A DNA stretch of 38,230 nt from Methanolobus sp. (lineage in GTDB: Archaea; Halobacteriota; Methanosarcinia; Methanosarcinales; Methanosarcinaceae). The stretch spans positions 1 to 38,230 of the forward strand of contig JASKKT010000021.1 of NCBI GenBank assembly GCA_030154025.1, read 5' to 3'. The notes beneath the pieces are model-generated. The model was not told the DNA's origin. It ran no database searches and worked only from the letters and a program-made list of their open reading frames with translations. A program made the translations under genes and the position numbers. Shown here piece by piece: positions 27,556 through 34,270 of the stretch. Each line of letters starts with the position of its first letter. Within the stretch, counting starts at the first letter, position 1.

Positions 27556-28197
27556 TTATACCACCTTCACGGATTTGCCCATGGTGGTCGTAACATAGAT
27601 CGATCTTATGTTATGCTTACCCTTCTCAAGAGCTTGCTCGACCCTGTTCAGGACAGTTTCTACATTGTCTGCCAGTTTGTTGACATCCATATCCTTACGT
27701 CCGACAGATACGTGGAACGTAAGCCTGTCTTTCGATCTTATCCTGATGGAGCTTTTTGCGTTGTTCACAAGATCGCCGACATTCTTGCCAGGTGGCAGGG
27801 GTGTTGGCATCTTTCCTCTCGGACCAAGGATCGCACCCAGATTCTTACCGATCTGGGCCATATACTGAACTTCGGCAATGAAGAAGTCACATTCGTTGGC
27901 AATAGCTCTTGCGCGTGCCTTGTCAGCACCGAGATCAGCGATGTCCGTGTCCGTGAATATGTACTGGACACCCGCTTCCTTTGCCTGGAGACCTACTTCT
28001 CCTTTCGCAAAAACAGCGATCTTGAGGTCCTTTCCTAAACCGTGCGGTAATAATATCTCTTCATCGACACGGTTTTTAGGCTGACTCATGTCAAGATTCT
28101 TCAGGTTTATAGCCAGGTCCACACTCTCAGCGAAATTGCGCTGTGGTGACTCCTGCAATAACCTGTTAATAGCTTCTACTATATTTTGTTCTGCCAT
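27556..28197 (-). CDS. rpl1: Ribosomal protein L1
   Basis: 213 residues. The family motif ILGPRGKMPTPLPPGKNV is present, with flanking domain I/II elements including AKGEVGLQAKEAG. L1 forms the L1 stalk at the ribosomal E site and in several archaea and bacteria represses its own mRNA. Upstream is a 158 bp gap from rpl11 with a strong secondary structure overlapping the GGGAGGT ribosome binding site (see 28208-28291), so autogenous control here is plausible. ATG 28197 is clear. Confidence 0.97.
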   Translation of the reverse strand: MAEQNIVEAINRLLQESPQRNFAESVDLAINLKNLDMSQPKNRVDEEILLPHGLGKDLKIAVFAKGEVGLQAKEAGVQYIFTDTDIADLGADKARARAIANECDFFIAEVQYMAQIGKNLGAILGPRGKMPTPLPPGKNVGDLVNNAKSSIRIRSKDRLTFHVSVGRKDMDVNKLADNVETVLNRVEQALEKGKHNIRSIYVTTTMGKSVKVV

Positions 28198-28207
28198 TCT
28201 TTACCTC

Positions 28208-28291
28208 CCGTAGTTTGAACAAACTGTTCAGGCAGGACCGTTCCGGTCTACTACGGCTTATTTAGAGTTTCAGTCATCTGGCTGAAACTCT
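28208..28291 (-). promoter_or_regulatory. Structured leader between rpl11 and rpl1
   Basis: Three perfect or near-perfect helices stand in 84 bases. An upstream hairpin AGAGTTTCAG/CTGAAACTCT (28264-28273 with 28282-28291, loop of 8) precedes an outer helix CCGTAGT/ACTACGG (28208-28214 with 28250-28256) that encloses two hairpins: GACCG/CGGTC (28236-28248) and TGAACA/TGTTCA (28216-28230). The 3' strand of the outer helix runs into the rpl1 ribosome binding site GGGAGGT. This looks like a regulatory three-way junction, perhaps bound by L1; no L1 consensus was tested. The upstream hairpin lacks a T tract and so is not a classic terminator. Confidence 0.6.
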
Positions 28292-28355
28292 GTCTAACGG
28301 GCACCTTTACTTAAACAACAGTTTTAAACCTATCGGTTAACCTGAGTAAGTACGG

Positions 28356-33808: not shown

Positions 33809-33893
33809 CGACGAGAGGGGGATTCGAACCCCCGTGATGCAAAGCACCACAGGATTAGCAATCCTGCGCCATACCGGGCTTGGCTATCTCGTC
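33809..33893 (-). tRNA. tRNA-Ser (anticodon GCT)
   Basis: The minus strand folds as a class II tRNA. Acceptor stem GACGAGA/TCTCGTC; D arm GCC/GGC; anticodon arm CAGGA-TTGCTAA-TCCTG with anticodon GCT at about 33855, reading AGC/AGU Ser codons; a long variable arm (GGTGC/CATC type) typical of Ser tRNA; T arm GGGGG-TTCGAAT-CCCCC. The 3' CCA is not encoded. No intron is seen. It lies about 50 bp after the SRP RNA on the same strand, and 7S RNA-tRNA-Ser linkage has been described in Methanothermus fervidus. Confidence 0.97.
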
Positions 33894-33944: not shown

Positions 33945-34270
33945 TCAGGTAGCGGGCATGCCGCAAGTCGCTGCCCTTCACATCTTCAAATTATCTGTGG
34001 CCTCTTCTCCACCCCGCAGCCCTGCAAGCGATAGTTGCCCACGGTAGGTCTGCTCCCTTCCGGTCCTGAACTGGTTCCCGCAGTTAAGATATAAGAACAG
34101 GTTCTCCAACAAGCCCTTATACCAACACCATCCAAACAGGACGGGGCTTCTCAGTTGAGATCGCAGGTTTGAAAATGATCCAGACATCTCCTCTTGGCTT
34201 CGTCCCCCGCATATCGGCGATTTCGGGTTACAGGTAACGCCGGCCTACCCGGACTAGCCCGCCACACCTA
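33945..34270 (-). ncRNA. Signal recognition particle RNA (archaeal 7S RNA)
   Basis: About 325 nt on the minus strand, ends approximate. The domain IV core, GTTCAGGACCGGAAGGGAGC, lies at about 34051-34072 and has the GGAAG tetraloop-type tip and the AGCAG side of the SRP54 site. The Alu-domain part near the 5' end carries GGCGGGCTAG and a CCTGTAACCC loop, and the 5' GGTGTGGCGGGC can pair with the 3' GCCCGCTACC, closing helix 1 of the archaeal SRP RNA. A strong TATA box lies about 20-25 bp upstream. It binds SRP19 and SRP54 to target membrane proteins to SecYEG; secE is in this window. Confidence 0.9.

Follow-up and report, generated by a model that had tools for sequence, protein, structure and literature searches.

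A conserved leader RNA resembling the 23S rRNA L1 site precedes rpl1 in Methanolobus and related archaea

The rpl11-rpl1 gap of the window

The window, by which we mean the whole 38,230-nucleotide stretch of Methanolobus sp. DNA that was analysed, carries on its minus strand, reading leftwards, the genes rpl11, rpl1, rpl10 and rpl12. The L1 genes closest to rpl1 of the window belong to Methanolobus, and a comparison of its product with the PDB returned archaeal L1 matches, including the chain sequence common to entry 1u63 (E 7.9e-49). A gap of 158 nt separates rpl11 from rpl1. Elsewhere in the window, an archaeal SRP RNA lies at 33950-34264 (minus strand), with a tRNA gene close behind it on the same strand (33809-33893).

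Read along the minus strand, the gap contains a predicted promoter, the hairpin P0, the 5' strand of helix P1, UA, the hairpin P2, CUGCC, the hairpin P3, AA, the 3' strand of P1 (P1'), the Shine-Dalgarno sequence (SD) and the ATG of rpl1 (Table 1). A preliminary description of this DNA had drawn a helix enclosing two hairpins, with a ten-base hairpin just upstream, and all of these elements exist on the minus strand. It had also described the enclosing helix as merging with the rpl1 ribosome binding site, and P1' and the SD do have base 28208 in common. The end of P1' lies 10 nt from the ATG, with similar spacing in relatives. The 97-nt leader folds with -32.1 kcal/mol, compared with a mean of -19.3 (sd 3.0) for shuffled sequences (z = -4.25), and 0 of 200 shuffles folded as stably, in agreement with the earlier judgement that so many helices are unlikely by chance. 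Folding prediction leaves most of the SD of the window leader unpaired even when P1 is formed. As for P0, its outer AGAG/CUCU pairs are retained in most Methanolobus while the inner pairs vary. A hairpin of ~12-13 bp resembling the P0 of the window, CAGUGAGACAGG..CCUGUUUCACUG, stands directly 5' of P1 in two haloarchaeal-type loci (L144 and L145).

Table 1. Features of the rpl11-rpl1 region of the window
Feature	Position	Strand	Remarks
rpl11	28841-28356	minus	
Predicted promoter of the L1-L10-L12 unit, BRE/TATA type, ACCGATAGGTTTAAAAC	28321..28337	minus	TSS predicted near 28302
P0, 10-bp hairpin, 5' part of the leader	28264..28291	minus	AGAGUUUCAG 28291-28282 with CUGAAACUCU 28273-28264
Putative uL1-binding core (P1, UA, P2, 3' junction strand, P1')	28208..28256	minus	covariance model, parser, covariation, 23S pattern
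P1 5' strand CCGUAG	28251..28256	minus	pairs with 28213-28208; P1 is 6-7 bp, CCGUAG(U) 28256-28250 with (A)CUACGG 28214-28208
P2 hairpin GACCG-GAA-CGGUC	28236..28248	minus	GACCG 28248-28244 with CGGUC 28240-28236
P3 hairpin UGAACA-GUU-UGUUCA, inside the 3' junction strand	28216..28230	minus	UGAACA 28230-28225 with UGUUCA 28221-28216
Invariant A directly 5' of P1' (ACUA)	28214	minus	78/78 parsed leaders
P1 3' strand (P1') CUACGG	28208..28213	minus	one base in common with the SD
Shine-Dalgarno GGAGGU of rpl1	28203..28208	minus	complementary to the 16S 3' end ...GGATCACCTCCT (same-genus locus)
rpl1 (uL1), first gene of the unit	27556..28197	minus	ATG starts at 28197; C-terminal TTMG present

Most Methanosarcinaceae loci have the motif ACCRATARNTTTAAA upstream of the leader, and promoters of Methanolobus psychrophilus lie ~19-22 nt from the transcription start (PMC5378194). 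The promoter match in the window, taken together with these Methanolobus start-site statistics, suggests a leader of ~105 nt starting near 28302. With a promoter of its own, rpl1-rpl10-rpl12 would thus be a unit separate from rpl11. In the predicted full transcript of the window genome, the 5' end of the leader, CCCGUUAG (28302-28294, minus strand), can form an alternative pairing with P1' (CUACGGG) that outcompetes P1, which reaches a probability of ~0.3-0.4. This competing pairing is not conserved, and its reading as a switch was rejected because it is confined to the window genome and, weakly, to Methanohalophilus. At the predicted 5' end, Methanolobus and Methanohalophilus have a conserved G(A/U)GCCC..(U)AUAGACAG after the TATA box.

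Conservation, covariation and distribution of the core

The consensus core consists of NNNUAG, N-A, a P2 helix with four or more base pairs, a spacer whose last base is A, and CUANNN; the SD comes next. It was searched for with a structural parser in 80 relatives, 79 of which are testable (Methanosarcinaceae, Methanomicrobiales and Methanomassiliicoccales), L032 being left out because of a contig end. The parser placed the core directly 5' of rpl1 in 77 of the 79, as well as in the window, at a distance from the rpl1 start of 9-15 nt in the relatives. The gap before rpl1 is conserved, which removes one of the two refutations named in the preliminary description. By the same parser, the leader motif is absent from L043 and L049, two divergent euryarchaeal MAG loci encoding L1. 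Among dinucleotide shuffles used as a control, 23 of 2310 (1%) passed.

All parsed leaders, those of 77 relatives and of the window, have an A in front of CUA. P1 occurs as CCGUAG/CUACGG, CCAUAG/CUAUGG, UUGUAG/CUACGA, UCGUAG/CUACGA and UUGUAG/CUACAA, and it therefore covaries. Because MAFFT put P2 in the wrong place when aligning the mixed set, the loops were N-padded before modelling, which keeps P2 in register. In a 19-sequence alignment, 98.6% of the cells are paired and 7 of the 11 pairs show changes on both sides, counts that lean towards the structure, since the parser searches for pairing and the alignment is built on the structure. These changes, which answer the call for compensatory substitutions in relatives, fall in three of the six pairs of P1, where UAG/CUA is invariant, and in four of the five pairs of P2. 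The covariation score is 0.562 compared with at most 0.156 for slid controls, of which only 27-45% of the cells are paired, and this gap is large enough for the covariation conclusion to be safe despite a structure-guided parser and alignment.

A covariance model of the core (R1) matched 110 of 295 Halobacteriota genomes with exactly one match each. Three of these matches (G147, G238 and G133) are weak, lie elsewhere than at L1 and were taken as chance; otherwise the number is a minimum. The best 30 R1 loci all lie immediately 5' of an L1 gene. In addition, 25 further genomes picked by their L1 protein alone, most of them missed by the strict filters of R1, were read directly, and the core is present in 24 of them; the exception is L134, with a P2 of 3 bp. 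These 25 include lineages that we infer to be Methanosarcina and haloarchaea. Methanomassiliicoccales, which belong to another phylum, carry the core before L1 even where rpl11 is not adjacent. A search of Rfam with the leader gave no relevant match at the gathering score or at E up to 10. What would be the archaeal L1 feedback leader is now placed across most Halobacteriota methanogen lineages and Methanomassiliicoccales, and a covariance model is ready for it while Rfam is without a family.

Resemblance to known L1 sites and a feedback model

Since the assembly of the window contains no 23S rRNA, a same-genus 23S was used for comparison. Its L1 stalk reads GGUAG GA GAC .. GUC GCCGUUGGGACA CUACC, and the leader counterpart shows the same arrangement, CCGUAG UA GAC .. 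GUC .. A CUACGG; the invariant A is also found in the 23S (GGGACACUACC). The pattern GTAGNAGRC N(5-32) GYC N(5-24) ACTAC has one match in the 38-kb window, the leader (0.03 expected), and one in the same-genus 5.9-kb 23S locus, the L1 site (0.01 expected), these chance expectations serving as a guide only because the shared pattern was written after viewing both sequences. In the 23S site (helices 76-78), the 3' strand is unbranched and 12 nt long, and a long arm extends past P2, whereas in the leader P2 is a short hairpin and P3 is present. Archaeal L1 autoregulation via rRNA mimicry is established, with the 23S rRNA bound more tightly (PMC10931766). Because the core copies the 23S L1 site and such mimicry is established, the ligand of the leader is very probably L1, and not L10 or L11.

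In Methanococcus vannielii, the L1 site lies ~30 nt inside the L1 gene, and 1U63 is the structure for this uL1 autoregulatory site of the L1-L10-L12 mRNA. The site of the window is alike in its two helices, asymmetric junction, mimicry of the 23S L1 site (PMC10931766), operon and regulator. It differs in ending 10 nt short of the AUG, in overlapping the SD and in having an extra hairpin in its 3' junction strand. No intragenic L1 site of the Methanococcus type was found, the only R1 match in the window genome (28208-28256) being upstream of the ATG. Judged by its sequence, the window core is the Methanococcus L1 recognition motif, located before the start codon rather than within the gene. The preliminary description had proposed a different, undescribed r-protein element; the r-protein leader stands, but its difference from the Methanococcus kind does not, the core being an L1 motif that mimics 23S.

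Leader-located L1 sites are said to have been described by Kraft et al. in 1999 in Archaeoglobus (A. fulgidus) and haloarchaea, and an archaeal one reportedly by Shimmin and Dennis in 1989. Like the leader of the window, the A. fulgidus and haloarchaeal sites are placed in the untranslated leader just 5' of rpl1, so that the window leader would add one more case to these, with a more elaborate structure. The core before rpl1 was also obtained from several other families of the phylum, among them haloarchaea; where their leaders were read, P3 is mostly lacking and the 3' junction strand spans just ~3-8 nt. Bacterial L1 leaders (rplK/rplA) are alike in being L1-bound irregular stems with an internal bulge (PMC10931766), but they belong to another lineage and, according to phylum, precede rplK, rplA or both genes. 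The archaeal S15, eL15 and L4 leaders (Eckert and Weinberg 2020) differ from that of the window, whose downstream genes encode L1, L10 and L12, and the same r-leader survey gave no new archaeal L1 motif.

We propose, with a probability of about 0.9, that this RNA serves the L1-L10-L12 operon as its autoregulatory leader, which L1 in excess would bind, thereby blocking the 30S subunit. Transcription would begin at a separate promoter within the rpl11-rpl1 gap, and the leader of the mRNA would fold into a copy of the 23S L1 site made of P1, a short UA/GA strand on the 5' side of the junction, P2 and a 3' strand ending in the invariant A. Once in excess over free 23S rRNA, L1 would bind the leader and clamp P1. 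Since P1' holds one SD base and ends so close to the AUG, L1 bound around P1/P2 would exclude the 30S subunit, and L1, L10 and L12 would not be made. Release of the message would follow when free 23S rRNA recaptures L1. P1 alone would be a weak lock: with most of the SD unpaired when P1 is formed, repression must rest on the bound protein. This counts against L1 feedback, as do the competition that P1 meets from pairing with the 5' end when the whole predicted leader of the window genome is folded, and the two distant loci L043 and L049 without the motif.

Other explanations were weighed against L1 feedback. There is a slim chance that the structure serves RNA stability, processing or transcription attenuation and has no protein ligand, as leaders of r-protein mRNAs in Methanolobus psychrophilus are long, on average 165 nt (PMC5378194), and P0 is close to the predicted 5' end. 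However, invariant unpaired residues and an rRNA-like junction are unexpected in a plain stabilising stem, the window sequence shows no U-run 3' of the structure, and the spacing to the start codon is fixed within 9-15 nt. Slimmer still is the chance that the leader binds L10, the L10-L12 complex or L11. In its favour, the genes for L10 and L12 follow the leader and that for L11 precedes it, bacterial L10(L12)4 is autoregulatory (PMC10931766), and P3 might conceivably serve as a second protein site; yet the core matches the 23S L1 site, no Rfam L10 leader match was obtained, and the motif still precedes L1 where the L11 gene lies elsewhere, Methanomassiliicoccales being an example. That the helices are chance inverted repeats in an AT-rich gap is scarcely credible. 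Short helices are common and the probability of P1 in the full window leader is low, but this reading is already refuted by the covariation, and the folding z-score and the conservation across families and classes also stand against it.

Hairpins inserted in the 3' junction strand

An unbranched 3' junction strand is usual for uL1 mRNA sites without defining them, and in the window this strand is interrupted by P3. The strand is 5-8 nt long and devoid of P3 in Methanomicrobiales, Methanomassiliicoccales and Methanohalophilus. It holds one hairpin (GAAC..GUUC type) in Methanolobus, Methanomethylovorans and Methanosarcina, two in L023, and three in Methanococcoides and ANME-3; in the other families, L136 and L138 have separate insertions at the place of P3. 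The three-way-junction shape noticed earlier is present, but it does not mark a new element: it is a lineage-specific insertion of P3, in Methanosarcinaceae, into a known core. The sequence of P3 is conserved more than covarying, its only clear compensatory change being that of ANME-3 (AAAC..GUUU), and P3 is probably peripheral to the L1 contact. We know of no other L1 leader with a hairpin in the 3' junction strand, and the contact geometry could therefore differ.

A more speculative reading, which we hold to be unlikely, is that the Methanosarcinaceae L1 leader is a multi-branched composite RNA whose inserted hairpins tune the affinity for L1 or sense a second signal beyond L1 feedback, which might be, for example, temperature, salt or another protein. 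With zero, one, two or three hairpins in one junction strand, these leaders form a natural series for studying how additional RNA is accommodated or exploited by an r-protein site, and the series occurs in organisms with genetics (Methanosarcina). In one Methanosarcina-type leader (L128, ~1430-1490), the P3 segment is tandemly duplicated and folds as one longer hairpin.
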